In this document: one piece after another, positions 4,461-54,171 of the stretch | Layout of the letters: each line of letters opens with the position of its first letter | Numbering within the stretch: the stretch's first letter is position 1 | Assembly: GCF_000147355.1 (NCBI RefSeq) | Contig: NC_014506.1 | Span: forward strand, 1,488,001 to 1,552,000 | Reading direction: 5' to 3' | Length of the DNA: 64,000 bases | Source of the DNA: Sulfurimonas autotrophica DSM 16294 | GTDB taxonomy: Bacteria; Campylobacterota; Campylobacteria; Campylobacterales; Sulfurimonadaceae | The notes under the pieces: generated by a model | The model's input: only the letters and a program-made list of their open reading frames with translations | Databases searched by the model: none | What the model was told of the DNA's origin: nothing | Made by a program: the position numbers and the translations under genes

Positions 4461-4462
4461 AT

Positions 4463-5845
4463 TTAATCTGTTCCTCTTTTAAAATCATCATCTAGTCTTT
4501 CTATGTCATCTTCACCTGTATAGCTTCCGACTTGTGCTTCTATTATAACTAATAGCTCATTAGTATCATTTGAAAGCCTGTGAATATCACCTGCCTTAAT
4601 GTAAGTAGACTCGTTTTGTTTTAATACAAAAATATCATCGTTTATCGTAACTGTTGCTGTTCCACTTACTACTACCCAGTGTTCATTTCTGTGTTTATGT
4701 CGCTGCAATGAAAGCCTTTTGCCCGGTTTTACTTCTATGCGTTTGATCTTATAACCATCAGAATCTTCAAGTATCGTATAAGTTCCCCATGGTCTATGTC
4801 CTGTCAAGTGAATATTATGCAGTTCTGTGGTTTTTTTAATTTCACTAACAACTTGTTTTACTTTTTGAGAGCTTCCTTTTTTAGAGATTAAAAGAGCATC
4901 ACCTGTGTCAACTACTATCATATCATCTACATCAACAGTTGCTATATACCTGTCATTTCCATAAATAAGATTATTTTTACTGTCTATTTGAATGTATTTT
5001 TCATTAGTTGTATTGTTATTTTCATCTTTTGGCAGTTCTTCATAAAGAGAATCAAAGCTTCCTACATCCGACCATCTTATATCTGATGGAACTACTTTTA
5101 CTTTTTGACTTTTTTCCATCACTGCGTAATCAATACTGTCTTCTGGAATGTTTAACATGGCATCGTGTTTTATTCTAATCGTGTTCTTAGACGAAGTTAA
5201 AGCCTCATTTGCGAGAGCCTGCTTAGACATTTCGTAGATTTTTGGAGAGTATTTTTTTAATTCTTCTAAAAATATTCCTGCTTTAAACATAAACATACCA
5301 CTATTCCAGTAATAGTTTCCTGCTTCTAAATATTTTTCAGCAGTATTAAGATCCGGTTTTTCATGAAAAGCTTTCACGGTCAAATCATCAGCTTCAATAT
5401 ATCCGAACCCTGTCTCTGCAGACGAGGGAGTTATGCCGAATGTAACGAGATTATTTTTTTCTGCTAACTCTTTTGCTCTTCGCAATACTTTTTCATATTC
5501 TACTTCATCTTTAATGAGATGATCAGATGGAGTAACTAAGACTAGCTCATCAGGCTCAAGAGCCATACATGCAAGTGCAATAGCTGGAGCAGTATTTCTT
5601 CCTACCGGTTCTAGTAAATAGCTATTGTGTATTTTCTGCAATTCTTCAAGCTGGTCAAGTGCTAAAAAGTACTGTTCAGAGTTTGAAACTATAAACTGGG
5701 AGTCACACACTTTTGAATTTCTCTCTACCGTTAATTGAAATAATGATTTGTCATCAAAAAGTTTTACAAACTGTTTTGGCATAAGTGTTCGACTAATCGG
5801 CCAAAGTCTTGTACCATTACCTCCGCATAAAATTATATTTGTCAT
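4463..5845 (-). CDS. manC: mannose-1-phosphate guanylyltransferase / mannose-6-phosphate isomerase
   Basis: Bifunctional enzyme giving GDP-mannose: an N-terminal nucleotidyltransferase ([13 protein letters not shown] at residues 8-20, followed by PKQF) and a C-terminal cupin-type phosphomannose isomerase. The isomerase domain shows [16 protein letters not shown] near residues 373-388 with metal-binding His and Glu, and ends with the usual [12 protein letters not shown]. Length 460 is normal for the bifunctional form. It sits two bases after the regulator gene and two before gmd, making the GDP-mannose segment of the operon contiguous. Confidence 0.96.
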
Positions 5846-5847
5846 AA

Positions 5848-6156
5848 CTAGGCCATTCCCTTCATAACTTCCAACTCTCTCTGTAACTCTTCATATTCAG
5901 CTTTTTTTCTTTGTATAAAGTTTTTCGTAAGTGCTACTTTTTCTTTGAAGCCTTTTTCTGTGAGTAGGTATTTGTACTGGTTTTTATTTTTGTTTTCAAA
6001 AAAATTCTCAGCTTTTATAAGCCCTTTTTCTATAAGGGCTTTTAAGACATAGTTTACTTTTCCTACACTTATGCCAAGTTCATCTGCTAGTGATTTTTGG
6101 CTTTTAAGTGTGTCTATATTTCTAAGAACCGAAAGGGTTAATTCTTCGTTGTGCAA
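5848..6156 (-). CDS. MarR-family EPS-associated transcriptional regulator
   Basis: A 102-residue winged-helix protein: the SLADELGISVGKVNYVLKALIEKGLIKAENF helix-turn-helix and wing occupy residues about 20-50, followed by a Lys/Glu-rich helix at the C-terminus. It fits the short MarR-like regulators that head exopolysaccharide or O-antigen operons. It is the first gene of the minus-strand sugar operon and lies two bases before manC, so it probably regulates its own operon. The promoter should lie in the AT-rich stretch just above 6156. Target sites are not identifiable by eye. Confidence 0.8.
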   Translation of the reverse strand: MHNEELTLSVLRNIDTLKSQKSLADELGISVGKVNYVLKALIEKGLIKAENFFENKNKNQYKYLLTEKGFKEKVALTKNFIQRKKAEYEELQRELEVMKGMA

Positions 6157-6241
6157 ATTAGTTTCTCTTTGTAAAATTCAAGTTTTGAATTGTAGCGTAT
6201 TTTTTGTTTATTTAATGGATTTCAAGTTTGAAAAACGCATG

Positions 6242-6266
6242 GCCCAGGTTAAAACCTGGGTTCCGA
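6242..6266 (+). repeat. short REP palindrome, CCCAGG arm type
   Basis: GCCCAGGTTAAAACCTGGG followed by TTCCGA. The arms CCCAGGTT and AACCTGGG pair perfectly over eight bases across an AA centre. It is one of three family members in the gap between the regulator and pgi, and its tail faces the next copy about 37 bases away. Confidence 0.95.
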
Positions 6267-6303
6267 GAAGATTTATGTACTTTACATGTAAAGATGCTCT
6301 TGC

Positions 6304-6330
6304 TCTTCGGAAGCAAGGTTTTAACCTTGC
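6304..6330 (-). repeat. short REP palindrome, GCAAGG arm type, inverted
   Basis: On the plus strand this reads CTTCGGAAGCAAGGTT then TTAACCTTGC. The arms GCAAGGTT/AACCTTGC are changed on both sides relative to the CCCAGG type, so pairing is kept. Its head faces the long copy at 6354 across a linker (CTTTTAGTCTTTAAAGACGC) that recurs in similar form at 16835 and 54151. Confidence 0.95.
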
Positions 6331-6353
6331 CTTTTAGTCTTTAAAGACGCATA

Positions 6354-6426
6354 GCCCAGGTTACAGAAAAAAATTTAGTTTTTTTCTAAGTCACGCTTTA
6401 GCATTTGAAAACATGGGTTCCGAAAA
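6354..6426 (+). repeat. long REP variant with two nested hairpins
   Basis: The outer arms GCCCAGGTT and the distal CATGGGTTCCGAA enclose an A7/T7 hairpin (AGAAAAAAA, loop TTTAG, TTTTTTTCT) and a weaker GCTTTAGC hairpin. The fold is a three-way junction rather than a simple stem-loop. The TTCCGAA tail ends five bases from the pgi stop codon. Confidence 0.9.
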
Positions 6427-6430
6427 CGTT

Positions 6431-7666
6431 TTATGATTGCAATTTCTTTTTCAATATCATCTTACCACTTTCCACACCTGGTTGGTCATAAGTATTTATA
6501 TACATAAACTTGCCGCATAATGATGTTAGTAGTTCATACTCATACATTAGTGATGCAATAGCGCTTTCACATACTCCGTCTATGGTAATGACATCACATG
6601 GGATGTCATTTAGATTTTGAATAGCTTCTATGGTTGCATCTGCCTGACTTTTTATGAGTGATGAAAATTCTAAGTCATTGAGGTAGTCTAAATCTTCTAG
6701 TCCTTCTAATGTAATAGCAGGAATCTTTAAGTCATTGTCAAAATTTTCTACTTTTATGACGGTTACTGTTTTGTCACGTCTGCCTTCTATTATGAGTTGG
6801 AGAAATGAGTGCTGGTCTATGGGGCCTATAATGCCGATAGGTGTGAGTCCTTGTCTTGTATTGTTTATATCTACTTTGCCTAAACTTTCTCCCCAGAGTT
6901 GGATGTACCATTTATTAAAGCCTTCAAGCCTAGAAGAGTATGAGAAAACTACGTTAATGTTGAAGCTGTTTTTGTATTCTACTAAGAATCTTGCTTTTTT
7001 TAAGAGTCTTGTTCTGACTAATGAGCTTTTTGCCCAGGTTGAAACCTGTGTTCCAAAGATGCCGAAGAAGTCATTATTTGTCTCTTTTGCACCTTTTAGG
7101 AGTTCATCTATATTTATGCCTACTATTGCAAGCGGCAACAATCCAACTGCTGAAAAAACAGAAAATCGTCCGCCTACATTTTGAGGTATGTCAAATGTTG
7201 TCATTGCATTTGCTTGTGCATAGGTGTTAAGTTTTGAATCGCTTTCTGTGATGATGACAGTATTTGTATGATTACATGTAACCAAAGAATTAACATATTT
7301 AAATATGGCCACGGTCTCTACAGTCGTTCCCGATTTTGAGATAACCACAAACAGAGTATCTTCAAGGTCAATATTTTCTATTTTAGATTTGATGTCTATA
7401 GGGTCTGTAGTTTCAAGAAAAAAGAGTTTTTTACTTAAGTTTTTGGAGTGTTTGAGGTACTTATATATAGCATAAGTTCCAAGTGTGCTTCCTCCTATAC
7501 CGATAACTACCACATTGGACTGTGTAACAGTTTTTGCATACTCTTTAAAAGGTGTAGTGTCTTGAAATGGAAGGTTATAGTAACCAATGTATTCTTTTTC
7601 TTTAACTATTTCATTAAAAATATCTTCATCTGAAATGGTCGGATTAAAGTTGTGGCTGTATTGCAT
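6431..7666 (-). CDS. pgi: glucose-6-phosphate isomerase with an in-frame REP insertion
   Basis: Interconverts glucose-6-phosphate and fructose-6-phosphate. The 411 residues show the SIS-domain signatures GIGGSTLGTYAIYKYL (about 56-71), VISKSGTTVETV (about 108-119), NVGGRFSVFSAVGLLP (about 163-178) and the LWGESLGK block. A REP palindrome lies inside the gene at 7032-7057 and is read as FGTQVSTWAKS (about residues 203-213), between the GAKETNN helix and RLLKKARFLVEYKN. The frame is kept, so the protein is probably still active with a short extra loop. galU lies six bases upstream on the same strand, suggesting a galU-pgi transcript. Confidence 0.95.
   Translation of the reverse strand: MQYSHNFNPTISDEDIFNEIVKEKEYIGYYNLPFQDTTPFKEYAKTVTQSNVVVIGIGGSTLGTYAIYKYLKHSKNLSKKLFFLETTDPIDIKSKIENIDLEDTLFVVISKSGTTVETVAIFKYVNSLVTCNHTNTVIITESDSKLNTYAQANAMTTFDIPQNVGGRFSVFSAVGLLPLAIVGINIDELLKGAKETNNDFFGIFGTQVSTWAKSSLVRTRLLKKARFLVEYKNSFNINVVFSYSSRLEGFNKWYIQLWGESLGKVDINNTRQGLTPIGIIGPIDQHSFLQLIIEGRRDKTVTVIKVENFDNDLKIPAITLEGLEDLDYLNDLEFSSLIKSQADATIEAIQNLNDIPCDVITIDGVCESAIASLMYEYELLTSLCGKFMYINTYDQPGVESGKMILKKKLQS
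7032..7057 (+). repeat. REP palindrome inside pgi
   Basis: GCCCAGGTTGAAACCTGTG followed by TTCCAAA, a slightly decayed CCCAGG-type unit. On the gene strand it is read in the same register as the copy at 7965-7989: GTQVSTWA here, GSKVLTLP there. No stop codon arises in that frame. Confidence 0.9.
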
Positions 7667-7672
7667 ACTAAT

Positions 7673-8635
7673 TTAGTTCTCACTCTTTTGATAAAAATAA
7701 TTAGTAGCTTCAACAAAACCATCGACACTGCCGCAGTCAAATCTTTTGCCTTGAAATTTATAGGCGATAACTTTTCCTTGTTTGGCTTGTTCTAACAGTG
7801 CGTCTGTTATTTGGATTTCTCCGCCTTTGCCTGGTTTTGTCTCTCTTAATATATCAAAAATATCAGGTGTGAGAATATAGCGTCCTATGATTGCCAAGTT
7901 TGAAGGAGCATCTTTGGGGTCTGGTTTTTCTACCATGTTTGTAACTTTAAAAACCCCTATATTAGGCAAGGTTAAAACCTTGCTTCCGATATCATTTTGT
8001 AACTTTGTTATACTTTCTTGTGCAGTAGAAACTTTGTTTCCGTCTTGCTCTCGGAACCCAGGTTTTAACATGGGCTGAACTTCATCTGAAATATCCATCT
8101 CTTCTACAGCAACCACCCCATATTTGTTCGTCTCTTCTAAGGGCACTTCTTCTACTGCCACAATGGAACATTTATACTTTTCATAAAGCTTCACCATCTG
8201 GGAGAGAACGCCCTCTGCTTCATTATCACACAAGTCATCTGCAAGTATAACGGCAAACGGCTCTTCTCCTATGAGCGTTTCACCTGTAAGTATTGCATGA
8301 CCCAGCCCTTTCATCTCTATTTGTCTGGTGTATGAAAATGTACAGTTTGTGATGACATTTCTTATTTCAGTCAGATAACTCTCTTTAGCTGTGTCTTTTA
8401 TCTGATGTTCAAGTTCGTAAGAGATGTCAAAATGGTCTTCAATAGCACGTTTTCCACGCCCTGTTACTATCGCCATCGTGCTTAGTCCTGCTTCTATTGC
8501 CTCTTCTACACCATATTGTAGCAGTGGTTTAGTTAGTACGGGAAGCATCTCTTTAGGAATGGCCTTAGTAGCCGGAAGAAATCTTGTACCATAGCCTGCA
8601 GCGGGGAAAAGACATTTTTTTATACATCTTTGCAA
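7673..8635 (-). CDS. galU: UTP-glucose-1-phosphate uridylyltransferase with a REP-derived insert
   Basis: Makes UDP-glucose for surface polysaccharides. The start has PAAGYGTRFLPATKAIPKEMLP (residues 11-32); ILADDLCDNEA and the closing GKRFDCGSVDGFVEATNYFY are family-typical. Length is 320, against about 274 for Campylobacter GalU as I recall it. The excess lies between NKYGVVA (170-176) and MVEKPDPKDAPSN (234-246), where the usual dozen residues become about 57. That segment contains two oppositely oriented REP units, read as QPMLKPGFRE (187-196) and IGSKVLTLPN (216-225). The active-site blocks flank the insert intact, so the enzyme is probably functional. Confidence 0.96.
   Translation of the reverse strand: MQRCIKKCLFPAAGYGTRFLPATKAIPKEMLPVLTKPLLQYGVEEAIEAGLSTMAIVTGRGKRAIEDHFDISYELEHQIKDTAKESYLTEIRNVITNCTFSYTRQIEMKGLGHAILTGETLIGEEPFAVILADDLCDNEAEGVLSQMVKLYEKYKCSIVAVEEVPLEETNKYGVVAVEEMDISDEVQPMLKPGFREQDGNKVSTAQESITKLQNDIGSKVLTLPNIGVFKVTNMVEKPDPKDAPSNLAIIGRYILTPDIFDILRETKPGKGGEIQITDALLEQAKQGKVIAYKFQGKRFDCGSVDGFVEATNYFYQKSEN
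7965..7989 (+). repeat. REP palindrome inside galU, GCAAGG type
   Basis: GGCAAGGTTAAAACCTTGC then TTCCGA, a perfect eight-base-pair stem. It forms the left half of an inverted pair with 8050-8076; the tails face each other across 60 bases, all of it read in-frame as GalU. Confidence 0.95.
8050..8076 (-). repeat. REP palindrome inside galU, CCCAGG type, inverted
   Basis: On the plus strand CTCGGAACCCAGGTTTTAAC then ATGGGCT, with one mismatch in the arms. It is the right half of the inverted pair in galU and is translated as PMLKPGFRE. Confidence 0.93.
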
Positions 8636-8710
8636 TTTGAATACCTTGATTATTTTATTTTGTTTATTATACTCTAAAAAGATTTGTTTTTTATAAATAA
8701 ATGGCTTTTT

Positions 8711-8736
8711 GTCCAGGTTAAAACCTGGGTTCCGAA
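8711..8736 (+). repeat. short REP palindrome after pglB
   Basis: GTCCAGGTTAAAACCTGGG then TTCCGAA, with one arm mismatch. The tail ends 17 bases from the pglB stop codon, the usual placement for the family. Confidence 0.93.
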
Positions 8737-8753
8737 AAGACTTTTTAGATATG

Positions 8754-10949
8754 TTATATTTTTAATTTATATACTTTTACACTTGGTGTTAACATGACAG
8801 GTTCAAAAAGTTTTTTATCATAATTTTGCAAAACCATAAGCTGAATATAAAGTGAATTATAAGTTTTTTCATCTACTAACAAAAAAGTATTATAATTACT
8901 CATAAATATTACACTTATATTTGATGAAAGGTTTACAGGCTGTACCTTTTTATGCAGTTGCATACTTTTATCATAATAAGTTTTAACAAACCTTCTTATG
9001 AGCACAGTTTTATTTCCAAAAGTAAGCTGCAAAGTTTTTTTGTCTAAAAATATATTTTGTGCAAGCTGTATTGTATTTCCTAAGTCTTTAAAATTTCTGC
9101 TTGCAAAGAAAAAAGGCTGCTTGCCTTTTACTCCATTCATAAGGTCTATATTTGAAAAAAGTGTCACTGTCGGGTAGATATTTATCATTCTATATGGCAA
9201 ATAAAAGTAAATATCTCTTGTCTTTTTAGGTAGTTTTACATCTAATGAAAGCTTACTTAAAAAATCATTTGCGTTTGTAAAACCGTAATCCTTTGTCATA
9301 TATTCTATATTGGAAAAAACTGTCAAATTTTTATCTTCTATCTCTTTTTTATACTCTTTTTGAAATTTGAATTTCTTTTCTGTGTATTCAACATCTAATC
9401 TTGCCATATTTGCAGCCTCTTTTTGCGTGTGCGTCAACATATAACTCACAGGAAAATTAACTGCTCCATTATGTTTTCCACCGTCTGCCAAAGTCTTTAC
9501 ATCAGCATAATACCGGATAGGATAACCGTAATCCCACCAAGAAATCACATAATCATCTCTCTTTGCTTTTTTGCCTAAAGCATCTAAAACTTTTACCTCA
9601 TTAGCATTAAAAACTGTTGGCACTTTATACATTTCTATATGTTTATAATTTGGATATAAAACACCTAATGTCAAAACAGTCATAAGTAAAAATTTGATAC
9701 GATTTTCTTGAGCATCTTTAACAGCTATTTGCTTTATAAATTTTTCAGAAATTTCTGTTATTAAAAAGGCAATTCCAAATGCCAAAACAGGAACAGCATA
9801 AATAGTAAATCGAAGTCCGCCGACATATGCCAAAAATCCAAGACCTACAAGAGGCAGTGACAGTATCATAATCCTTTGTTTATAAAGAAGGTAAATATAA
9901 CCAAGTAAAGAGATGAAAAATGTTATAGTATTTCCGCTTATACGATTTGCAAATGTTTCAAAAGGGATGTGCCCGGCTTCGCGAACTGTCTGCATTACTG
10001 TGAAAAAATGCAACCCAAGTCCTTTGCCTGTACTACTTACACTATTTCTAAATACATAACCTTTAAGTTGTGCCCAAATAGGATCAAACCCTCCTGTGGC
10101 AAAAAATCCAATTATGGAAAGCCCTAAAATATAGTAAATATATTTGTCATATTTTTCTTGTTTAAAGGCATAAAAGGCAGCCAAAACGAAGCCCAGGCGG
10201 ATAAATCCATCTGTATTCATCATAGCAAACATCATAATGGCAAGCAGTTTATAGTTATATGAGTTTTTTCTATCAAATATTAAAGTATATGCTAAAATCA
10301 GACCAAAGAAAGAAAATTCCAAAGAGTAGCTTTGCGGATACCACCATCTATACACCAAAATATCTAAAGCTGTAAAAAGCAGATAAATGTCTTTGTTTGT
10401 TTGTACAGCCCAAACGATAGACCAAAGCAGGAACATCGGTAGAACAATATTGAGCATATCGGTATCGTAATACCCTGCCATTGTACGATTATAATAACTC
10501 CAAGCCACAGAAGCTACAAGTGCTGCGATAAGGCCCATTTCGAGATTTTTAAGTGCTTTGGCTATAAGGATAATAGGGATGACAACAAGTGAGCTTAGAA
10601 AAACCGGCATATAAAATATAATACTCTCAAATGAAAACGGTAAAATTTTGACAAAGAATGCTGTTAGTTGTGACGCTGCCGATGTTACAGGTGAGAGATC
10701 GTTAAACTGATGAAACTTGTCAAAATACTCTTGTGCATTTGGATTTGTACTCGTTCCTGAGAGTAAATCCCGCGCACCTTCAGCCCAAATATAACCGTCA
10801 TTTGTGTTGATCATAAACTGCCCGTTAAAGTGAAAAGGTGCATAGCCTCCAAACTGGTAGACCCAAATCAAGCGCATAGCAACTGAAAAAGCAAATGCAA
10901 TGAGTATATAAAAAAGTGTTTTCTTATTTTCTGTTGTAAGTGTTAACAA
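8754..10949 (-). CDS. pglB: PglB/STT3 oligosaccharyltransferase (protein N-glycosylation)
   Basis: Inner-membrane enzyme that transfers a lipid-linked oligosaccharide to Asn in periplasmic proteins. At 731 residues it has an N-terminal GT-C domain with about a dozen membrane segments and a soluble C-terminal domain. Catalytic features are visible: TNDGYIWAEGARD (Asp51), YYDTDMLN (Asp162 and Asp164), a Glu in TVREAG (324) for external loop 5, and the sequon-binding WWDYG at 471-475 with GGLRFTIYA (Arg380). It is best placed as Campylobacterota PglB. The other pgl genes are not adjacent; neighbours are galU and a family 2 glycosyltransferase, each separated from it by REP repeats. Confidence 0.95.
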   Translation of the reverse strand: MLTLTTENKKTLFYILIAFAFSVAMRLIWVYQFGGYAPFHFNGQFMINTNDGYIWAEGARDLLSGTSTNPNAQEYFDKFHQFNDLSPVTSAASQLTAFFVKILPFSFESIIFYMPVFLSSLVVIPIILIAKALKNLEMGLIAALVASVAWSYYNRTMAGYYDTDMLNIVLPMFLLWSIVWAVQTNKDIYLLFTALDILVYRWWYPQSYSLEFSFFGLILAYTLIFDRKNSYNYKLLAIMMFAMMNTDGFIRLGFVLAAFYAFKQEKYDKYIYYILGLSIIGFFATGGFDPIWAQLKGYVFRNSVSSTGKGLGLHFFTVMQTVREAGHIPFETFANRISGNTITFFISLLGYIYLLYKQRIMILSLPLVGLGFLAYVGGLRFTIYAVPVLAFGIAFLITEISEKFIKQIAVKDAQENRIKFLLMTVLTLGVLYPNYKHIEMYKVPTVFNANEVKVLDALGKKAKRDDYVISWWDYGYPIRYYADVKTLADGGKHNGAVNFPVSYMLTHTQKEAANMARLDVEYTEKKFKFQKEYKKEIEDKNLTVFSNIEYMTKDYGFTNANDFLSKLSLDVKLPKKTRDIYFYLPYRMINIYPTVTLFSNIDLMNGVKGKQPFFFASRNFKDLGNTIQLAQNIFLDKKTLQLTFGNKTVLIRRFVKTYYDKSMQLHKKVQPVNLSSNISVIFMSNYNTFLLVDEKTYNSLYIQLMVLQNYDKKLFEPVMLTPSVKVYKLKI

Positions 10950-10971
10950 AATAATCCTTATCTAGTTTTTT

Positions 10972-11000
10972 GCCCAGGTTGAAACCTGGGTTCCGAAGAA
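10972..11000 (+). repeat. short REP palindrome upstream of pglB
   Basis: GCCCAGGTTGAAACCTGGG then TTCCGAAGAA. It sits between the pglB start and the end of the glycosyltransferase gene, and its tail faces the inverted copy at 11038. Confidence 0.95.
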
Positions 11001-11037
11001 TTGGCAATTTTTTACCAAATTTTGATGCATTATCCAG

Positions 11038-11067
11038 CTCTTCGGAAGCAAGGTTTCAACCTTGCCC
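11038..11067 (-). repeat. short REP palindrome overlapping a gene's 3' end
   Basis: On the plus strand CTCTTCGGAAGCAAGGTTTC then AACCTTGCCC. It overlaps the last codons of the glycosyltransferase gene: the repeat encodes the end of KGQG and supplies the TGA stop at 11056-11058. Confidence 0.93.
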
Positions 11068-11871
11068 CTTTAGTCTTAAAAATTTTAATTTACTGCTATA
11101 AATTTCAATGTCTGCCATTTTATCATATTTTATGGCACCTTTTAATAATAGCGTATATTTTTCTGCCAAAGTTTCTAACACTAAATCCTCATACTCTGTA
11201 TCTAAGAGTTTTTCTAATGATTTTATCCGAAATCTATCCATTCCCCAATGCTTAAAACTAAGTTGATCTTCATGCCCGGCATACTTTATTATAAGTTTTT
11301 CATTTATTAAGCCTATTTTTTCACTACAGGCAATTCTAAGCCATAAATCATAATCTTCACATACTTCCAAAGACTCATCAAATAAGCCGTATTTATCCAA
11401 CAACTTTTTATGCAGAAGCACGGAAGATGGAGCAATATTGCAATATGATATATTTTCTACAAAAGCATCTTTGCCTATCTTTTGAAATTTTTTTGGCACT
11501 TTTATCTCTTTCTCATTTCTTACCCACTTTTCATCTGTATAACTCATGAAAATATTTGGATTTTCTTTATGAAATGTCGCTTGTTCTTGAAGTTTTTGCA
11601 AATGCCATTCATCATCAGAATCCAAAAATGCTACCCACTCATTTTTTGCTTTTATAATGCCTGCATTTCTTGCAGATGAAACACCTTGATTTTTTTGGTA
11701 AAAATATTTTATATTTGGAAAATCTTGTATTATTTGATGTGTTTCATCGTTTGAACCATCGTCGATTATAATGACTTCATCGGCTGTAAAAGTCTGAGAG
11801 CAGACAGATGCCACGGCTCTTTTTAAAAGTTTATAGCGATTATGTGTAGGAATAATAACTGAAATTTTTAT
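11056..11871 (-). CDS. family 2 glycosyltransferase with an ATA start codon
   Basis: A GT-A fold glycosyltransferase of 271 residues. The classic N-terminus ISVIIPTHNRYKLLKRAV is encoded upstream of the first conventional start (a GTG at 11814), so the gene must begin near 11871. There the codon is ATA, eight bases after AAGG; the only upstream in-frame codons before a stop (TAA) offer no ATG, GTG or TTG. Downstream are the nucleotide-binding DDGSNDET (about 37-44), the metal-binding DSDDEWH (about 85-91) and the acceptor-side ED in CEDYDLWLR. The stop codon comes from a REP repeat. Either the gene uses a rare start or its start codon is lost; the acceptor sugar is unknown. Confidence 0.8.
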   Translation of the reverse strand: MKISVIIPTHNRYKLLKRAVASVCSQTFTADEVIIIDDGSNDETHQIIQDFPNIKYFYQKNQGVSSARNAGIIKAKNEWVAFLDSDDEWHLQKLQEQATFHKENPNIFMSYTDEKWVRNEKEIKVPKKFQKIGKDAFVENISYCNIAPSSVLLHKKLLDKYGLFDESLEVCEDYDLWLRIACSEKIGLINEKLIIKYAGHEDQLSFKHWGMDRFRIKSLEKLLDTEYEDLVLETLAEKYTLLLKGAIKYDKMADIEIYSSKLKFLRLKGQG

Positions 11872-11890
11872 GATTTTTTCCTTTTTGGAT

Positions 11891-11918
11891 TCTTCGGAAC
11901 CTAGGTTTTAACCTAGGC
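11891..11918 (-). repeat. short REP palindrome, CCTAGG arm type
   Basis: On the plus strand TCTTCGGAACCTAGGTTTTA then ACCTAGGC. The perfect arms CCTAGGTT/AACCTAGG are a third pairing-preserving variant. Its head faces the copy at 11941 across the linker containing AAGCCTAAAA. Confidence 0.95.
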
Positions 11919-11940
11919 TGAATTGCTTTGAAGCCTAAAA

Positions 11941-11968
11941 GGCAAGGTTAAAACCTTGCTTCCGAAGA
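11941..11968 (+). repeat. short REP palindrome after the RAYT gene
   Basis: GGCAAGGTTAAAACCTTGC then TTCCGAAGA. It lies 19 bases beyond the transposase stop codon, with its tail towards the gene. Confidence 0.95.
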
Positions 11969-11987
11969 GCATACATCTAAAGTCATA

Positions 11988-12494
11988 TCACTCATATTTA
12001 CTAAAAACTCTCTCATCCGTCAAACCTGCTTTGAGTGCATTATTTTTTATATAATTATACACACTGACAAAATGTTCTTCATCTCTTATTGCTTTGTCAA
12101 AATACCCATTTGCCCAAAATTTTCCATCTCTTTTTAAATATTTATTTAATTCTACAGCACTTTTACCTTTTATATATTTCATAATTTTGTCTAAATTTGT
12201 ATTTTGTTTCAATAAAATATGTATATGATTTGGCATTATTGCCATGATTTCTACATCATATAAATTTTCATCTTCTTCTAAAATCGTATCAACCATAATA
12301 TCTATAGCGTCTTCAAAAAAATAAGCACCATTTTGACTCTTATCTAAATATTGGTCTATTTTGTATTGTTTGATTTTTTCTGTGTCTGTGGAGTTTTGTA
12401 TACGTTTGACGTATTCCTCGACGCTGTCATGGGTTCTAAATGTTACAAACTGGTAATGTTCTTGCAGGTCTAAGTGGTGTAGTTTTGTGTGCAA
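11988..12494 (-). CDS. REP-associated tyrosine transposase (RAYT, Y1_Tnp family)
   Basis: A 168-residue single-strand DNA transposase of the IS200/IS605-like HUH superfamily in its domesticated RAYT form. The metal-binding pair is His90/His92 in MPNHIHILL, WANGYFDKAIRDEEHF at 127-142 is typical of the family, and the nucleophile is likely Tyr148 in YIKNNALKAGL. REP palindromes lie on both sides (11891-11968 and 12530-12597), the expected arrangement for a REPtron, so this is the natural candidate for moving the repeats in this window. The start is TTG, five bases after AGGGG. There are no terminal IS ends or tnpB, so it is not a free insertion sequence. Confidence 0.92.
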   Translation of the reverse strand: MHTKLHHLDLQEHYQFVTFRTHDSVEEYVKRIQNSTDTEKIKQYKIDQYLDKSQNGAYFFEDAIDIMVDTILEEDENLYDVEIMAIMPNHIHILLKQNTNLDKIMKYIKGKSAVELNKYLKRDGKFWANGYFDKAIRDEEHFVSVYNYIKNNALKAGLTDERVFSKYE

Positions 12495-12529
12495 TATTTC
12501 CCCTACTAAAGTATTTTAAAGCCCTGTCT

Positions 12530-12558
12530 GCCCAGGTTGAAACCTTGCTTCCGAAGAG
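12530..12558 (+). repeat. hybrid REP unit upstream of the RAYT gene
   Basis: GCCCAGGTTGAAACCTTGC then TTCCGAAGA. The left arm is CCCAGG type and the right arm is CCTTGC type, so the outer base pairs are broken. This looks like a recombinant between two subfamilies. Confidence 0.9.
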
Positions 12559-12571
12559 CCAAAAACGCATA

Positions 12572-12597
12572 GCCAAGACAAAAGTTTGAGTTCCGAA
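12572..12597 (+). repeat. decayed REP unit after mqnE
   Basis: GCCAAGACAAAAGTTTGAG then TTCCGAA. The arms are eroded but length, register and tail match. It ends ten bases from the mqnE stop codon with the tail towards the gene. Confidence 0.7.
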
Positions 12598-12606
12598 ACA
12601 GTTATT

Positions 12607-13650
12607 TTACCACACTTTAATTTCGTTATAAACGCTGTCTCGCTCTACGGGTGTAAAGCCGCTATTTTTTATAAGTGCCGTAAAATCTTCCAAATTTACA
12701 CCGTTGGCACTTTTTGCGCCTGCGGCTGAGTTTATGGACTCTTTTTCTATGGTTCCGTCCAAATCATTTGCACCGAACTCTTGTGCTACCAGTGCTAAGT
12801 TTACCGTTGATGTCACCCAATATGCTTTTAAATTCGGTACGTTATCAAGTACCAGTCTTGCAATTGCCATTGTTTTTAATATCTCATTGGCAGTGATGGG
12901 TTTTTCAATTTTCAAGTAATTATTTTCCGTCTGATAGACAAGCGGGATAAAGGCATTAAATCCACCCGTAATATCTTGAAGTTCACGTATACGCATCATA
13001 TGATCTATTCGGTTTTCACGACTCTCTATATGTCCAAAAAGCATGGTAACATTAGATTTTTTACCGCGTTCATGCCATTTTCTGTGAATTTCAAACCACT
13101 GGTCTGATGTTACTTTGCCTTTACAGATATAATCACGCACTTTTTCATCAAAAATTTCAGCACCGCCGCCAGGCATAGAATCGACACCGTTTTCTACCAT
13201 CAAATCCAGTACCTCATCATAAGAAAGCCCATGATGACGGGATAAAAAGTCAACTTCTGCAGCGGTTAGTGCTTTTACATGTAGATGCGGATACGCCGTT
13301 TTAATCTTTTTAAATATACCCAAATACCAGTCCAGTGTGACATTCGGATTATGTGCGGAGACGATATGCACCTCTTTTGCACCGTGAGCATCTACTTCGG
13401 CAACAATTTTCATAATATCTTCATGTGTCATTGTATATTGATTCGGATTTTTTCGGGTTGCTGAATAAGCGCAAAATTTACACACATCTGCACAAACATT
13501 TGTCGGGTTAATATGACGATTTATATTAAAGTAAGTTTTTTTGCCGTGAAGTTCTTGACGTTTTTTATCGGCAAATTCACCGAGTTCAAAAAAGTCCATA
13601 TCGTACAGTTTTAGTGCGTCATCAAAATTTATTCTATTATTTATATTCAT
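12607..13650 (-). CDS. mqnE: aminofutalosine synthase (menaquinone biosynthesis)
   Basis: Radical SAM enzyme that makes aminodeoxyfutalosine in the futalosine route to menaquinone. The 4Fe-4S cysteines are in CADVCKFCAYS (residues about 53-63), in the CX3CX2C spacing, and SMPGGGAEIF and VSAHNPN are conserved in MqnE. I place the start at the ATG at 13650, preceded by AAGG at six bases; an upstream in-frame ATG at 13680 lies inside the kinase gene and lacks a comparable site. That gives 347 residues. It follows lsrK by eight bases, so it is probably cotranscribed although the functions are unrelated. Confidence 0.95.
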   Translation of the reverse strand: MNINNRINFDDALKLYDMDFFELGEFADKKRQELHGKKTYFNINRHINPTNVCADVCKFCAYSATRKNPNQYTMTHEDIMKIVAEVDAHGAKEVHIVSAHNPNVTLDWYLGIFKKIKTAYPHLHVKALTAAEVDFLSRHHGLSYDEVLDLMVENGVDSMPGGGAEIFDEKVRDYICKGKVTSDQWFEIHRKWHERGKKSNVTMLFGHIESRENRIDHMMRIRELQDITGGFNAFIPLVYQTENNYLKIEKPITANEILKTMAIARLVLDNVPNLKAYWVTSTVNLALVAQEFGANDLDGTIEKESINSAAGAKSANGVNLEDFTALIKNSGFTPVERDSVYNEIKVW

Positions 13651-13658
13651 TTTATACC

Positions 13659-15224
13659 TTATAATCCGGGGGCTTTCCACATTGAAGTCGTGATATTATC
13701 ATCAACTAGCTTTAATTGTACTTCATATGCCTGCTGCCATTTGATTTTTAATTTGTCATAAATTTTTTTATTTTCCAAATTCGGTTCATAAGTTTTTTCC
13801 CAAACTACCAGCTCTTTTGCTGCACTTGCCAAATCTTTATAAATACCACAGCCTACGCCCGCAGCCATGGCAGCACCCAAGGCTGTTGCCTCCGTAATGC
13901 GAGGAATTTTTACTCTGTAACCTGTCACATCTGCTACTATCTGTGCCCAAAGTTGACCTTTGCTCGCACCGCCTGCAAAAACGATTTCATCAAACGCTAC
14001 ATTGCTGAACTCTTTTATCTTTTCTAAGTTTATACTTGAGACTATTGCTGCATTCTCTTGTAAACTTCTAAACATTGAAGCACGATTATATTTCTCATCA
14101 TCCAACCCGAGATTTAAAAAGCTAGGTGCTGCGTGGTACCATTTTTTATACTTCATAGAGTCTGAAAATATAGGAAGTATCCCATAAGAGCCAGCCGGAA
14201 TTTTTTGCGCTTTTTGCTCTAAAATTTCATACACATCACAGCCTTTTTCCTCTGCTTCTCTCATTTCCAACTCACAAAAAGCATCTCGAAACCAACGCAT
14301 AACCAGTCCTGAGAAAAATGTAATGCCCTCAGCTTGTGAGAGCCCTCTAACTACATGTGGATTCACTCGCACGCTCATATCTTTTGGCGGTGCGACATCA
14401 CTTTTGATGTTAACGACCTGCTGCCAGAAAGAACCACCTAATATTGCCACTTGTCCAGCTTCTACAACACCCAAACCTGCTGCACCGAGCTGAACGTCTC
14501 CACCACCCATAATAACTTTTGTAGATGTTGAAAGCCCTGTCTCATCAGAAGCCTTTTTTGTAACAAAGCCCATAACAGAGCCTACTTCTAAAACTTTAGG
14601 AAAAATAGTCTCTTTAATACCGACTTTTGCAGCCATCTGCGGCATCCAATTTCTCTCTTTTAAACTAAAAATACCTGTTGTCCCGCCATTGCTCGGATCA
14701 CTCGCTATCACACCGCTCAAACGTGCCAAAATCCAATCGCCTATCATCGAAATACGGGCTACTTTATTATAAATTTCAGGGCGATTATTTTTAAGCCACA
14801 AAAGCCGAGGCAATGCACCCAAAGCAAAGGTTTGCCCTGAAGCTGTATAAAATTCTTCTTCAAGGTCTGCAAAATTTTCTTTTAAATAACGCACTTCTTG
14901 TGAAGCTCGTGCATCCACATTGGCAACAGCCCATAGCTCTTTACCTGCCTCATCATACAAAACAATGCCCTCACGCATACTTGTTGCACTCACGCCTAAA
15001 ATATCATCAGGATTTATAGCGGCTTTTTGTATCGCTTCTTGTATACATGTAACGATTAAAAACCAGTTATGCTTACAATCAAAAGTCATGGAATTTGGCA
15101 CATTTTCTTCTTCTAAATGTGTCCATTCTCTTTGTCCGACTGCTATTTGGTTGGCTTTTGTGTCAAAAATTACGGCACGGATACTACCTGTGCCTGCATC
15201 TATTGCCATGAGGTATTTTTGCAT
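13659..15224 (-). CDS. lsrK: autoinducer-2 kinase (FGGY family)
   Basis: Phosphorylates the autoinducer-2 precursor DPD after uptake. The 521 residues resemble enterobacterial LsrK closely rather than xylulose or glycerol kinases: the start has MAIDAGTGSIRAVIFD, then VSATSMREGIVLYD, WAVANVDARAS, DPSNGGTTG, GGGDVQLGAAGLGVV, FWQQVVN, RVNPHVV, TMRWFRDAFC-like MRWFRDAFCELE, KWYHAAPSFLNL and the closing TTSMWKAPGL. The FAGGASKGQLWAQI phosphate-binding block is near residue 420. A class II aldolase and an LsrG-like protein lie just upstream. No lsrACDB transporter or lsrR is in the window, so how the substrate enters is open. Confidence 0.88.
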   Translation of the reverse strand: MQKYLMAIDAGTGSIRAVIFDTKANQIAVGQREWTHLEEENVPNSMTFDCKHNWFLIVTCIQEAIQKAAINPDDILGVSATSMREGIVLYDEAGKELWAVANVDARASQEVRYLKENFADLEEEFYTASGQTFALGALPRLLWLKNNRPEIYNKVARISMIGDWILARLSGVIASDPSNGGTTGIFSLKERNWMPQMAAKVGIKETIFPKVLEVGSVMGFVTKKASDETGLSTSTKVIMGGGDVQLGAAGLGVVEAGQVAILGGSFWQQVVNIKSDVAPPKDMSVRVNPHVVRGLSQAEGITFFSGLVMRWFRDAFCELEMREAEEKGCDVYEILEQKAQKIPAGSYGILPIFSDSMKYKKWYHAAPSFLNLGLDDEKYNRASMFRSLQENAAIVSSINLEKIKEFSNVAFDEIVFAGGASKGQLWAQIVADVTGYRVKIPRITEATALGAAMAAGVGCGIYKDLASAAKELVVWEKTYEPNLENKKIYDKLKIKWQQAYEVQLKLVDDNITTSMWKAPGL

Positions 15225-15274
15225 GTTTTCTTCTTTTGTTTTTTTAGAAATATTTTAAATTTAAAAGTAACTCA

Positions 15275-15303
15275 GCCCAGGTTAAAACCTGGGTTCCGAA
15301 GAG
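15275..15303 (+). repeat. short REP palindrome after the aldolase gene
   Basis: GCCCAGGTTAAAACCTGGG then TTCCGAAGA, with perfect arms. It separates the aldolase gene (stop at 15311, seven bases away) from lsrK, with its tail towards the aldolase stop. Confidence 0.95.
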
Positions 15304-15310
15304 CATTTCA

Positions 15311-16486
15311 TTACTTTTTCAGTTTTGCCTGTTCCAGTTCCCAGTATTCCATTTGAAAACTCTCTTCTTCGCTGATGCTTTGGTATCCGCCGAGTTTATC
15401 GGCACGTAAGACTGCAAGCATTGTGTGATTTACTATATCATTTATGATTGCTGCCTCTTCTCTAGTTTTGCCAAAAGAGATGACTGCAAGATTTTTTATA
15501 ATCATATAATTTGGTGCAGGATTTAACATCACCTCATCTTTTGCATACTTGTTAAAATACGCTCTATACTCTTTTATGTATCTTTCAATACTGCCTTCTA
15601 AATCAGTATCTTCCATTATTAAAGGCACTCTTTTTGTTCGTATAATATGCTCAGGCGTTAAAACTCCGCGAGAAGCAAACTCTTTGAGATTCTCTTGTGA
15701 AGCATAAAAAGAGGCTAAAGGAGACTGGTTGATGTTGATAGAAACATCATAGCCTTTTGCTCGTGATAAAACCTTAGTGATTTTGCCGATATCACAATCG
15801 CTATGAACATAATTGTGCTCTAAATGGACAAGTGCATGCTCATCCAAAAAGTCTTCTGCTTTTATGACCGCTTCAATCATTTTGTCATAAGATTTTTTCG
15901 CATCATTATCGAAGGTAAAAATACCATGATGATGTAAAATGATGCCGTCAATACTCTCCCAGTCCAAATCTTTTGTCATCTCATATATTTTATGCGCCAG
16001 CTCAAAGCCCGGCATTACATAATCAACGATTAAAAAATTTGGAAAGAGATTTACGATATGCTCGTCTCCATTGACTGAATTTGAAATAGTAACTATTGCA
16101 TCCGCATGTGTGTGGTCTACAAACTTATAAGGAATAAGGGCATGCAGTATCGCCTCTACTGAAGGATTTGGCGCAGACTTATCTATCATCGCTTCTCGTT
16201 GCAGGCGCACCATTTCACTGTCGCTGAGTTCTGGCAGTTTCGCCATTTCCAGGAGTGCATCAAGTTTTACAGGAGCAAAACCTTCTGCTTTTATGCTTGC
16301 CAAGTCCCAGCCACTGCCCTTTACATGTAACACATCTTCGCCGTCTATTTTATTTTTAAGCGAGGTATTTCCTCCGCCGTGCAGAACCAGTTCATCATTC
16401 TGTCCTAAAAGATTTGAGCTGTAGACTCGTAAGTCCAAATCATTTTTGCAGGCGTTTGCTTTTTTTTCATTCCATAAATTATCCAT
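15311..16486 (-). CDS. class II aldolase/adducin-family protein
   Basis: A 391-residue zinc-dependent class II aldolase-like protein. The phosphate-binding HGGGNTSLKN is at about 36-45, HTHADAIV (about 124-131) gives two metal His, and HHHGIFTF (about 195-202) supplies the third. It resembles the N-terminal aldolase half of the larger RhaD-like aldolase/dehydrogenase fusions, without the dehydrogenase half. It overlaps the LsrG-like gene by eight bases and precedes lsrK. By position it could cleave a phosphorylated autoinducer-2 breakdown product, a step done by the thiolase LsrF in E. coli. That role is inference; the substrate is unknown. Confidence 0.85.
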   Translation of the reverse strand: MDNLWNEKKANACKNDLDLRVYSSNLLGQNDELVLHGGGNTSLKNKIDGEDVLHVKGSGWDLASIKAEGFAPVKLDALLEMAKLPELSDSEMVRLQREAMIDKSAPNPSVEAILHALIPYKFVDHTHADAIVTISNSVNGDEHIVNLFPNFLIVDYVMPGFELAHKIYEMTKDLDWESIDGIILHHHGIFTFDNDAKKSYDKMIEAVIKAEDFLDEHALVHLEHNYVHSDCDIGKITKVLSRAKGYDVSININQSPLASFYASQENLKEFASRGVLTPEHIIRTKRVPLIMEDTDLEGSIERYIKEYRAYFNKYAKDEVMLNPAPNYMIIKNLAVISFGKTREEAAIINDIVNHTMLAVLRADKLGGYQSISEEESFQMEYWELEQAKLKK

Positions 16487-16778
16487 AATTTACCCCCAAA
16501 ACTTCTAATTCATCTGTATATTTATCTTCGCAATACGGTTCATATGAAGATTTATATACTTTGTAATGTGCTGAGGCTTTATGCCCGTCTAAAGCGGCCT
16601 CGTTTTCCCAGGTCTCTACTGCCATAAATCTTTTTCTATCATTTTCATATTGAAAAATCTCATAAAACAGGCACCCTTTTTCTGCTTTACTTGGCTTAAC
16701 CATGGCAGATAAGAGTTCTTTCATTTTATCTTCACAGCCCTCTTTTGCTATAAATGTTACGCTTTTTGTAATTGTCAT
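16479..16778 (-). CDS. LsrG-like antibiotic-biosynthesis-monooxygenase-fold protein
   Basis: A 99-residue ferredoxin-like ABM-fold protein. The GHKASAHYKVYKSSYEPY stretch (about 66-83) mirrors the His-rich HYK segment of LsrG, the isomerase acting on phosphorylated autoinducer-2. It heads the minus-strand unit LsrG-like, aldolase, lsrK, mqnE, and its stop overlaps the aldolase start. ABM proteins are diverse, so without lsrK nearby I would leave it unassigned; the context makes phospho-AI-2 isomerase the best reading. Confidence 0.75.
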   Translation of the reverse strand: MTITKSVTFIAKEGCEDKMKELLSAMVKPSKAEKGCLFYEIFQYENDRKRFMAVETWENEAALDGHKASAHYKVYKSSYEPYCEDKYTDELEVLGVNYG

Positions 16779-16810
16779 TTTTTATTTTCCCTTTTTATTT
16801 TTTAACTATC

Positions 16811-16834
16811 CCCAAGCAAGGTTGAAACCTTGCC
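16811..16834 (-). repeat. short REP palindrome, GCAAGG type
   Basis: CCCCAAGCAAGGTTGAAACC then TTGC; the CTTCGG tail is altered to CCCC. Its head faces the long copy at 16857 across CTTTTAAGCTTTCTAGACGC, a linker very like the one at 6331. Confidence 0.88.
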
Positions 16835-16856
16835 TTTTAAGCTTTCTAGACGCACA

Positions 16857-16929
16857 GCCCAGGTTACAGAAAAAAATTTAGTTTTTTTCTAAGTCAGGCT
16901 TTAGCCTTTGAAAACCTGGATTCCGAAAG
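16857..16929 (+). repeat. long REP variant with two nested hairpins
   Basis: Outer arms GCCCAGGTT and AACCTGGATTCCGAA enclose an A7/T7 hairpin and a GGCTTTAGCC hairpin. Compared with the copy at 6354, the second inner hairpin reads AGGCTTTAGCCT instead of CGCTTTAGCA, and pairs better. It ends about 50 bases before glnD, whose possible -10 (TATAAT, 16970-16975) is very close to the start codon. Confidence 0.92.
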
Positions 16930-16980
16930 GCATTTTAAATTTTAAAGATAAATTATATCAAAAATTCAATATAATATCAT

Positions 16981-19494
16981 ATGAATTTACTTTTAGAAAT
17001 AGAAAATGTTATAGAAAAAAAAGGTTCTGACTTTGAACTCTCAAAACTCTTCAAACAATACATAAAAGAGTACAAAGAATCTTTGCCTGAGTTGTTTACA
17101 AAAAATCAGGGTAAAGATTTTTTGGTACGTCATACAAAAAAACTTGACTCCATTATAGAATTGATGTACAAAACTGTCCTGCGCCGTGCTTTTGGAAACT
17201 ATCTGCCTATGCGAAGTTCCATTCCTATTGCCATTGTTGCCCTTGGCAGTTACGGACGGGAGCAGCTTTGTGTGCACAGTGATATTGACTTGCTTATAGT
17301 TTATAAAGATGTCGAGGGTTACAATTGTGAACTTATCATCGAAAAACTTTTTTATCTTGCACTTGATGCCGGTATGAAACTCGGTCACAGAGTACATGAA
17401 ATAGATGACCTTTTTAAAGCCAGCACAGAAGATGTCACCATAAAAACTTCTTTAATGGAATCAAGACTCATTACAGGTTCCCCATTTACCTGGCATGCAA
17501 CACAAAGAGAGCTAAATAAAATTCGTCTGCATGAGCAAAAAAAGTTTCTTCTTGCTAAAATCAAAGAAGCGCAGGAGCGCAGAAAAAAATATCCGACTTC
17601 TATGCAGCCAAATATAAAAAAGAGTGTCGGCGGGCTTCGAGATGCACAGCTTATTTACTGGGTGGCAAAAACAATCTACGGTATCAACAGCACAAAAGAA
17701 CTCAGTGGCGCAGTCTTTAGCGATGAAGAATACAAAGAATTTCGTATAGCGCTTGAGCTGCTTTACAGAGTCCGCAGTGCCTTACATCTTATCACGAACA
17801 GACAAGAAGACAGGCTCCTTTTAGAATATATTCCTCAGGTCAGCAAACTTTTAGGCTTTAAAGAGCAAAAAAAACTTGCAAGTAAAGTTTTGGAAGCCCA
17901 ATGGCGCATCAATAATTTTGCACAAATTTTTGTCAAAAAAATGGTACGTCCTTTCATATATGATGCTAAACATATAGCTGCTTTTCGAAGAAACAGACTC
18001 CAAAAAGGTTTTTATGAGTACAATTCAAGACTTTATGCTTCTTTTAAACTCCAGCCACAGGAAATCTCTGACTTACTACAGTTACTTATAAAACTAAAAG
18101 ACAAAGATTACCGCTTTGATGCCGGTTTTTTACATCAATTTACTATTACCAAAATTTCACACCCTCTTGAAGACACAACCTATGCACTCTTAAAAAAGCT
18201 TTTCAAAAAAGCACATATTGCTTCATTTTTAAAGCTTTTTTATGATGCGGGAATACTGCCGGAACTTTTTGAAAACTTTAAAAAAGTAATGCATCTGCCG
18301 CAATTTGACGGGTATCATCATTATCCTGTAGACATTCACTCCATAAAATGTGTCCAGGCACTCGAAAATATCAAAGAACCTTTTTTACAAGCTCTGTATA
18401 ACGAAATGGACGAAGAGGAGAAGCTGATACTTAAAATTGTAGTATTTTTTCATGACAGCGGCAAAGGCAGAAAGCAAGACCACAGTGAAGTTGGTGCAAA
18501 ACTTGTCGTTCAATTTGCAAAATATATAAATCTCAATGAAGAGCTGACAAAAAGAGCTGTTGTCCTCGTAAAACAACATATACTCATGAGTAATGTCGCT
18601 TTTAAAGAAAATATACACAATGAAAAGACACTGTACAAATTCATGTCAAAAGTAGGTGATGCCAAAAATCTTAAACTGCTGTATATTCTCACCTATGCAG
18701 ACATCAGCGGTGTAGGTGGAGATATTTACAACTCTTTTAATTCTAAGCTGTTGTATGATTTGTATCTCAGTGCACTCGAAATTGCCCAAAATACGGGAAG
18801 AATTACCGATGCAAAAAAAAGGCTCCTCATTGAAGCCAAGGTTAAAAATCTTGATGAGTTTAAAGAGCTGCCAAGTTTATTGCAAAAAAAAATTTTAACC
18901 ATAGAGTCAAATCTTTTTTTCTTTAAACATTCACCTCAAGATATTATTAACATTGCAAAAATAGCCAAAGAAACAAAAGAATACAGCTTTAGAGTAAAAA
19001 ATGTCAACTCTCTAAGTATAGAAATATATCGAAGAATCCCATTAAATATCAGTTACCTGCTTGCTACATTAGCCCACCTTAATGTTGCTTCTATGGAAAT
19101 TTTTACACTTTTTGACAGTATCAAATATTTTAAAATCGAATTTATACAGAATGTAGACTCTAATGTACTTGTTGAAGTCCAAGATATTATAGACAATGCT
19201 TTTGATATGGACAAAGAAGTAAAACTCAAAAATGTCAACATAAAAAGAGAAGAAATTTCAATAGATTGTGAACACTCTCTCACCCACGCCGAGCTTGCCA
19301 TTCATACTGCAAACCAAATAGGTCTTTTAGCTTATGTAATGCACAAATTTGAAGAATTAAATATAAATATCATTACAGCAAAAATTCACTCAAGCAAACA
19401 TAAAGTAAGAGACAGCTTTTTAATGGAAAAACAAAACGATATATGTAATAATGTCGAAAAAATTTATGAATTATTGTCAGATAATACAAAATAA
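16981..19494 (+). CDS. glnD: [protein-PII] uridylyltransferase / uridylyl-removing enzyme
   Basis: Senses glutamine and modifies the PII nitrogen regulator. The 837 residues contain a nucleotidyltransferase domain with GSYGREQLCVHSDIDLLIVY (about 89-108) including the paired metal Asp, the GGLRDAQ block near 218, an HD domain with FFHDSGKGRKQDHSEVG (about 490-506), and two ACT-like regions at the C-terminus. Length is close to other GlnD proteins. glmS follows nine bases later, so the two are probably cotranscribed. gdhA further along the window is a related nitrogen-assimilation gene. Confidence 0.94.
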   Translation: MNLLLEIENVIEKKGSDFELSKLFKQYIKEYKESLPELFTKNQGKDFLVRHTKKLDSIIELMYKTVLRRAFGNYLPMRSSIPIAIVALGSYGREQLCVHSDIDLLIVYKDVEGYNCELIIEKLFYLALDAGMKLGHRVHEIDDLFKASTEDVTIKTSLMESRLITGSPFTWHATQRELNKIRLHEQKKFLLAKIKEAQERRKKYPTSMQPNIKKSVGGLRDAQLIYWVAKTIYGINSTKELSGAVFSDEEYKEFRIALELLYRVRSALHLITNRQEDRLLLEYIPQVSKLLGFKEQKKLASKVLEAQWRINNFAQIFVKKMVRPFIYDAKHIAAFRRNRLQKGFYEYNSRLYASFKLQPQEISDLLQLLIKLKDKDYRFDAGFLHQFTITKISHPLEDTTYALLKKLFKKAHIASFLKLFYDAGILPELFENFKKVMHLPQFDGYHHYPVDIHSIKCVQALENIKEPFLQALYNEMDEEEKLILKIVVFFHDSGKGRKQDHSEVGAKLVVQFAKYINLNEELTKRAVVLVKQHILMSNVAFKENIHNEKTLYKFMSKVGDAKNLKLLYILTYADISGVGGDIYNSFNSKLLYDLYLSALEIAQNTGRITDAKKRLLIEAKVKNLDEFKELPSLLQKKILTIESNLFFFKHSPQDIINIAKIAKETKEYSFRVKNVNSLSIEIYRRIPLNISYLLATLAHLNVASMEIFTLFDSIKYFKIEFIQNVDSNVLVEVQDIIDNAFDMDKEVKLKNVNIKREEISIDCEHSLTHAELAIHTANQIGLLAYVMHKFEELNINIITAKIHSSKHKVRDSFLMEKQNDICNNVEKIYELLSDNTK

Positions 19495-53922: not shown

Positions 53923-54025
53923 GTAATTTGTTCCTAATGCTAAATATTTCTTTGGATTATCTCTAAAAAGTGTTGAAGAATGGATAAAATAATAAACTTA
54001 TAATAAAAAAACGCCAAAAAGCCTA

Positions 54026-54121: not shown

Positions 54122-54150
54122 CTCTTCGGAAGCAAGGTTTTAACCTTACC
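54122..54150 (-). repeat. short REP palindrome, GCAAGG type
   Basis: CTCTTCGGAAGCAAGGTTTT then AACCTTACC, with one arm mismatch. Directly tandem with the long copy on its left, and head-to-head with the copy at 54172 across CTTTAGGCTTTAAAGACG. Confidence 0.93.
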
Positions 54151-54171
54151 TTTAGGCTTTAAAGACGTATA

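Follow-up and report, generated by a model that had tools for sequence, protein, structure and literature searches.

The REP-associated tyrosine transposases (RAYTs, also TnpA_REP) of gammaproteobacteria are vertically kept, domesticated genes. Two issues are unsettled in the field: by what means REPs spread, and whether RAYTs have been domesticated or have kept their mobility. Among TnpA_REP subclasses, whose hosts include Epsilonproteobacteria, most are accompanied by REPs with a GT[AG]G foot; subclass 2.6 and class 3 are atypical (PMC6006769). GTAG repeats were reported in all proteobacterial divisions, epsilon included, together with CGTC and GTAG repeats in Sulfurovum NBC37-1, REPs located within genes, TIRYTs with non-GTAG repeats and a REPtron deleted in many E. 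coli strains (PMC3733652). In group 2, the GTAG guide is essential (PMC8266576), and S. gotlandica figures in RepRanger in a generic REP count only (PMC12306157).

Here, we analysed a stretch of 64,000 nucleotides (the window; bases 1488001-1552000) of Sulfurimonas autotrophica DSM 16294, whose genome is a single contig of 2,153,198 bp. A preliminary description had proposed that the window holds a RAYT framed by its own REP family and knew of no such description in Campylobacterota. The latter point was overstated, given the epsilon cases in PMC3733652 and PMC6006769. A search for Sulfurimonas together with REP-associated tyrosine transposase returned nothing, and neither GGAA-footed REPs nor Sulfurimonas REPtrons were found described in the openly accessible main texts searched. 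REP-RAYT systems, including non-GTAG feet and epsilonproteobacterial cases, are already known, and it is the GGAA-footed setting that appears to be new. Below, genomes and loci carry G and L numbers, G000 being S. autotrophica.

A single RAYT gene in the S. autotrophica genome

The gene occupies positions 11988-12494 of the window on the minus strand, starts with TTG and encodes a TnpA_REP-like HUH/Y1 transposase of 168 residues with catalytic H90, H92 and Y148. Its match to Y1_Tnp (PF01797) reached 46 bits for a cut-off of 23, and it was the sole Y1_Tnp gene found in the genome. N89, H90, H92 and Y148 showed no variation in alignments of 19 and 43 relatives, and W127 and D133 were likewise invariant among the 43, so that the initial assignment of the domain and of its catalytic residues was borne out. 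The best NCBIfam model was the REP-associated tyrosine transposase NF047646 (REP_Tyr_transpos) with 68.9 bits, as compared with 36.4 bits for the IS200 model; because the curated cut-off of 80 was not reached, the protein is not filed under this narrower equivalog. When the AlphaFold (AF2) model (pLDDT 90) was submitted to Foldseek, 4er8, the E. coli RAYT-REP complex, came out at rank 1 (E 5e-7). Superposed on 4er8, the model scored Z 14.2 with 131 residues aligned at 2.1 A, from residue 2 to residue 168; IS608 TnpA gave Z 12.2 over about 100 residues. The predicted fold is nearer to TnpA_REP than to IS200 TnpA. Between close pairs, dN/dS was 0.07-0.14, as for a gene under purifying selection. 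Collectively, the Y1_Tnp domain with its HUH motif and catalytic Tyr, the fold and the flanking multi-copy REPs place the protein in the RAYT/TnpA_REP superfamily.

GGAA-footed REPs flank the gene and recur in the genome

The whole block (11893-12597) lies between mqnE and a glycosyltransferase gene. Downstream of RAYT, positions 11893-11966 hold a perfect inverted pair (REPIN), whose two feet point outward and whose units are separated by 24 nt. It is made of REP-B (11893-11917, plus strand), with foot TTCGGAA at 11893-11899 and hairpin CCTAGGTT-TT-AACCTAGG, and REP-A (11942-11966, minus strand), with hairpin GCAAGGTT-TT-AACCTTGC and its foot read as TTCCGAA at 11960-11966. REPs had been announced on both sides of the gene; upstream, this was true only in part. 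The REP found there (12531-12555, minus strand; foot TTCCGAA at 12549-12555) is imperfect, with a hybrid A/B stem and no clean palindrome, and the outer edge on the mqnE side is a bare TTCCGAA without intact hairpin (12591-12597, minus strand).

Read with the foot at left, a REP unit is (T)CGGAA followed by an 8-bp stem, a 2-nt loop and the returning stem. Two main stems occur in the genome, A (GCAAGGTT/AACCTTGC) and B (CC(T/C)AGGTT/AACCT(A/G)GG), and most often one A and one B unit face each other in inverted orientation, their feet outward, across a linker of 20-25 nt. These recurrent A-B pairs, spaced about 50 bp, have the inverted orientation and fixed spacing of REPINs or BIMEs. The pattern AGGTTNAAACCTNNNTTCCGA had 33 matches in the genome at up to two mismatches, versus 0 for the reversed control; 22 were exact, 15 fell inside the window and 12 copies lay within 6 kb of RAYT. 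The first count of about twenty relatives in the window therefore holds only if degenerate and loop-interrupted copies are included, the pattern itself giving 15. Among the intergenic copies are REP-B at 6243-6266, 8712-8735 and 10973-10996 (all minus strand) and REP-A at 6307-6330 (plus strand). A further REP-A is at the pglB/glycosyltransferase boundary (11042-11065, plus strand), and a REP-B lies between the aldolase and AI-2 kinase genes (15276-15299, minus strand). Distal copies include a REPIN of REP-A and REP-B (54126-54196) and a REP whose GACT/AGTC stem shows a compensatory change (56057-56080, minus strand). The neighbourhood (3312-16486) consists of sugar-nucleotide, N-glycosylation (pglB) and menaquinone (mqnE) genes, and the order pgi-galU-pglB-glycosyltransferase-mqnE is common to G001.

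We compared 21 distinct REPs, three of them from relatives. GGAA was present without exception, and the stem showed two-sided changes at 6 of 8 pairs, with a covariation of 0.64 versus 0.21 in shuffles. Pairing stood at 96%, a value biased upward by the choice of rows as near-palindromes, which does not create the two-sided changes. The structure was far above shuffled and slid controls. Thus, the repeats have the short hairpin, the fixed 5' tetranucleotide and the compensated stem that define a REP structurally. They lack the canonical 5' GT[AG]G foot, GGAA being invariant and GTAG not enriched. The TTCCGAA tail put forward earlier as the candidate recognition element is indeed conserved; more exactly, it is the 5' GGAA foot of the opposite strand and so occupies the position of GTAG in E. 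coli REPs.

The same foot was met around related RAYTs, a GGAA- or GGAT-footed hairpin lying within 800 bp of the gene in 33 of 43 sampled clade loci. The leading foot word, obtained unsupervised, was GGAA. It was carried by 44% of 219 hairpins within 800 bp of the 43 clade RAYTs versus 9% of 69 distant hairpins (p 1e-8), bearing in mind that this control set is small and that foot words were tallied after the motif had been spotted by eye. Other feet were GGAT (L020, L021 and L044) and GGGG/GGGGC (gammaproteobacterial members); L052 fits neither. A one-residue foot code, in which the residue after the conserved Trp would be A with GGAA and Q with GGAT/GGAC, was suggestive, but it was broken by L034 (Q, GGAA) and L044 (A, GGAT) and was discarded.

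Incidentally, we noticed another element, some 43 bp long (core TTTAGTTTTTTTCTAAGTCACGCTTTAGC), which sits in REP loops and does so in two REP types. It is found in the window at 6386-6425, 16889-16930, 54024-54094 and 57236-57314, and amounts to 10 copies in S. autotrophica, 10-15 in G115 and G137, and 14 in G206, whereas most genomes of the genus lack it. This short sequence may be an element that targets REP loops. Also, G115 has an apparently complete insertion sequence in a REP loop between mqnE and the glycosyltransferase gene (L179, ~15500-17000); ACTTCAGT is apparently duplicated there, and the element resembles known REP-targeting IS elements.

REP type follows RAYT lineage across the family

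Clade RAYT relatives, at 39-72% identity, were found in about 23 of 200 family genomes, and their distribution in the genus was patchy (about 20 of 107 genomes). Three REP types were each associated with RAYT (Fisher p 2e-4, 1e-3 and 3e-5 for types 1, 2 and 3). Type 1 reached at least 5 copies in ten genomes, six of which have a clade RAYT. Type 2 (CCCGTACTTYAGTGCGGG) was found only in G115, G137 and G150 (83, 115 and 232 copies), which are exactly the genomes carrying the 71-72% RAYT. Type 3 reached at least 5 copies in eight genomes, six of them with the matching RAYT lineage. When the types were united, a RAYT was present in 12 of 18 REP genomes versus 11 of 182 others (p 3e-9, 200 family genomes). 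Judging from these sequences, REP stem type matches RAYT lineage and not host lineage, which upholds the proposed pairing of the RAYT with its own repeat family. The host-tree control was weak: well-supported branches yielded only 4 independent pairs, none of them discordant (each was concordant or tied), and the sign test was not significant.

The stricter prediction that the repeats abound only in genomes with this RAYT clade failed. Profile search found no clade RAYT in six genomes with at least 5 type 1-3 REPs (G073, G159, G176, G184, G144 and G151). Four of these are incomplete (78-91%), and completeness is 100% for G073 (20 copies) and 96% for G159 (21 copies). This indicated that REPs persist without RAYT. 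An equal abundance of the repeat in close relatives without any RAYT, which had been named as an observation that would refute the pairing, is thus seen in part, in G073 and G159, yet the strong association remains. Orphan REPs are expected after RAYT loss. As for remnants, the RAYT-negative genomes yielded just the long Y1 class or weak fragments, that of G144 being unconvincing. The longer Y1 transposases (about 250 aa, 25-36% identity; e.g. L025-L031) are frequent in the family; we did not see TTCCGAA near them, and they resemble the REP-less subclass 2.1. In the plasmid collection, four records held distant RAYT relatives alone (28-35% identity).

REPs have entered genes and cluster near RAYT

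Some REPs of the window are not extragenic, the copies at 7036, 7969 and 8051 being inside genes. In galU (ORF 7673-8635), a REP pair with feet inward (7966-8074) lies within an in-frame insert of about 44 residues. G115, G137 and G150 have the insert at the identical place, with REPs that have diverged and are still palindromic, and nine relatives lack it. In pgi (ORF 6431-7666), a 10-residue in-frame insert is one REP (7033-7056, minus strand). G001 has nothing there, and at the same site in G087 the insert is longer, spans about 28 columns and contains REPs of the type proper to G087. A REP pair was also in frame within a priA-like ORF (L113; named by eye), and the RAYTs of L016 and L017 have REP sequence in frame inside their own C-terminal coding region. 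Insertion sites were too diverged for the target sequence to be read.

REPs were concentrated around RAYT. In S. autotrophica, 8 of 22 insertion loci, counted by hand, were within 13 kb of the gene (p 5e-13). The same held in genomes with RAYT at unrelated loci: G164 had 11 of its 14 copies within 6.1 kb, all seven copies of G095 were within 1 kb, and in G064, 15 of 54 copies were on RAYT's 11-kb contig. Clustering was weak where copies were many (8 of 83 in G115 and 6 of 115 in G137 within 40 kb). This suggests that REPs would spread locally first and then expand genome-wide.

The RAYT block occupies different sites

The mqnE-glycosyltransferase junction holds the block in S. autotrophica and is short, without the block, in G184, of the sister lineage, and in G001. 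In G039, G137 and G115, it holds REPs without RAYT, one REP of G115 having an IS inside. In G115, G137 and G150, RAYT is located about 3 kb away, between the aldolase and AI-2 kinase genes, a junction with a REP alone in S. autotrophica and G184 and with nothing in G001 and G039. MqnE alone splits S. autotrophica from these three genomes, but the four RAYT-bearing genomes group together in the MqnE+GlmS host tree, though without strong support (84/87). For this group, we therefore prefer vertical descent over transfer, and the simplest reading is that the block relocated or that it was duplicated and then lost alternately.

Other lineages called for transfer. G081, G143, G095 and G164 have close RAYTs and type-3 REPs in common, a grouping at odds with their host genes (rejected, p 5e-37); host genes also reject the RAYT grouping of G091, G180, G140 and G087. 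In the RAYT tree, gammaproteobacterial methanotrophs, Psychromonas and Ghiorsea nest among Campylobacterota, with binning errors of metagenome-assembled genomes possible for some. An apparent recent duplication in G108 was set aside: both copies are embedded in a stretch of 15.9 kb that is identical, pointing to an assembly or segmental duplicate, not to transposition.

Discussion

The locus is probably a REPtron, composed of a HUH/Y1 single-strand-DNA transposase of the RAYT (TnpA_REP) kind and of a REP family that it mobilizes. A RAYT dimer would bind the REP hairpin on single-stranded DNA, probably during replication, would read the GGAA foot as guide instead of GTAG and would nick beside it through Tyr148. 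REPs and REP pairs may then be copied or moved, near the gene at first and genome-wide later. With a REP on either side, RAYT itself might also travel, reaching another site or another host. Once RAYT is lost, REPs would stay as inert relics. A wider reading, to which we give a little under an even chance, is that the GGAA-footed REPtron, in contrast to the domesticated RAYTs of gammaproteobacteria, is a mobile unit. It would pass by horizontal transfer between Campylobacterota (and into vent gammaproteobacteria), bringing its REP type along; REPs would be seeded around the arrival site and afterwards throughout the genome, and the REPtron would make short-range moves until its loss left orphan REPs. 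A single genus would then display the life cycle of a REP family.

A possibility was that RAYT is domesticated for a host role, REPs being fossils of past mobility kept as terminators, mRNA stabilizers or protein-binding sites. The strong purifying selection on the gene, the single copy in S. autotrophica and the orphan REPs of G073 and G159 are all consistent with it. Yet we consider it unlikely, since RAYT is patchy in the genus and sits at different loci, host genes reject its groupings, REPs inside galU, pgi and the priA-like frame have no terminator role, and the RAYTs of L011 and L020 contain stop codons.

An ordinary IS200-like element, in which RAYT moves together with the REPs on either side and scattered REPs are degenerate ends, would account for a whole block that G184 and G001 lack at a precise junction and that G115, G137 and G150 have elsewhere. 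It appears improbable, however, given one full copy per genome versus 33-232 REP copies, a fold closest to TnpA_REP and not to IS608, and the higher score of the RAYT model over the IS200 model. Several near-identical full copies per genome, the hallmark of IS200/IS605, were not found in S. autotrophica, which has one. Finally, spread of the repeats by a different enzyme or by recombination, with RAYT as a bystander beside a repeat hotspot, would fit the six genomes with repeats and no RAYT and the REPs without RAYT at the junction of G039, G137 and G115, but it is hardly credible, as repeat type follows RAYT lineage and not host lineage, REPs also cluster at RAYTs that lie at unrelated loci and no further Y1 transposase was found in S. 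autotrophica.

With the REPtron as the preferred reading, the value of this one genus lies in RAYT-REP pairs caught at various stages, in housekeeping genes with empty sites and in REPs concentrated around RAYT. Moreover, GGAA, GGAT and GGGG make up a natural non-GTAG foot set with which the reading of the guide tetranucleotide could be tested.

Among known systems, the TnpA of IS200/IS605 (IS608, ISDra2) shares the fold, hairpin recognition (here a candidate feature) and the 5' guide tetranucleotide, but no TnpB was seen beside RAYT and the repeats far outnumber the transposase. TIRtrons (PMC3733652) likewise combine a RAYT-like gene, the TIRYT, with flanking non-GTAG inverted repeats that can form moderate families in dimers. 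In contrast, each Sulfurimonas unit is self-complementary, folding into a hairpin whose foot does not vary, and thus fits a REP better than long TIRs. Subclass 2.6 (group 5) and class 3 also have genes flanked by "atypical" non-GTAG REPs, with a CnGA foot in class 3 (PMC6006769); they differ in that subclass 2.6 is mostly from Bacteroidetes, with weak structures and YIH[QN]NP, and class 3 has a Y----Q motif. The likeness to subclass 2.4 (Bertels group 4), drawn solely from motif comparison with the table in PMC6006769, comprises the NH[IFV]H and YIxNNP motifs and in-frame REPs within the RAYT gene (L016, L017), whereas GT[AG]G feet and WQ are reported there and GGAA with mostly WA is found in the Sulfurimonas clade. 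The E. coli RAYT (subclass 2.2, Bertels group 2; PDB 4er8) has in common the HUH/Y1 fold with HxH and Tyr, REP pairs flanking the gene, a hairpin with a 5' tetranucleotide foot and dispersed REPINs. Its foot is GTAG instead of GGAA; the Sulfurimonas stem is short (8 bp), with a TT/TC loop and without conserved bulge, and the Sulfurimonas RAYT is horizontally patchy. Finally, when the proteins are aligned via the W motif, E. coli Q95, which contacts the guide (PMC8266576), corresponds to A128, whereas D100 and R104 are matched by D133 and R137.
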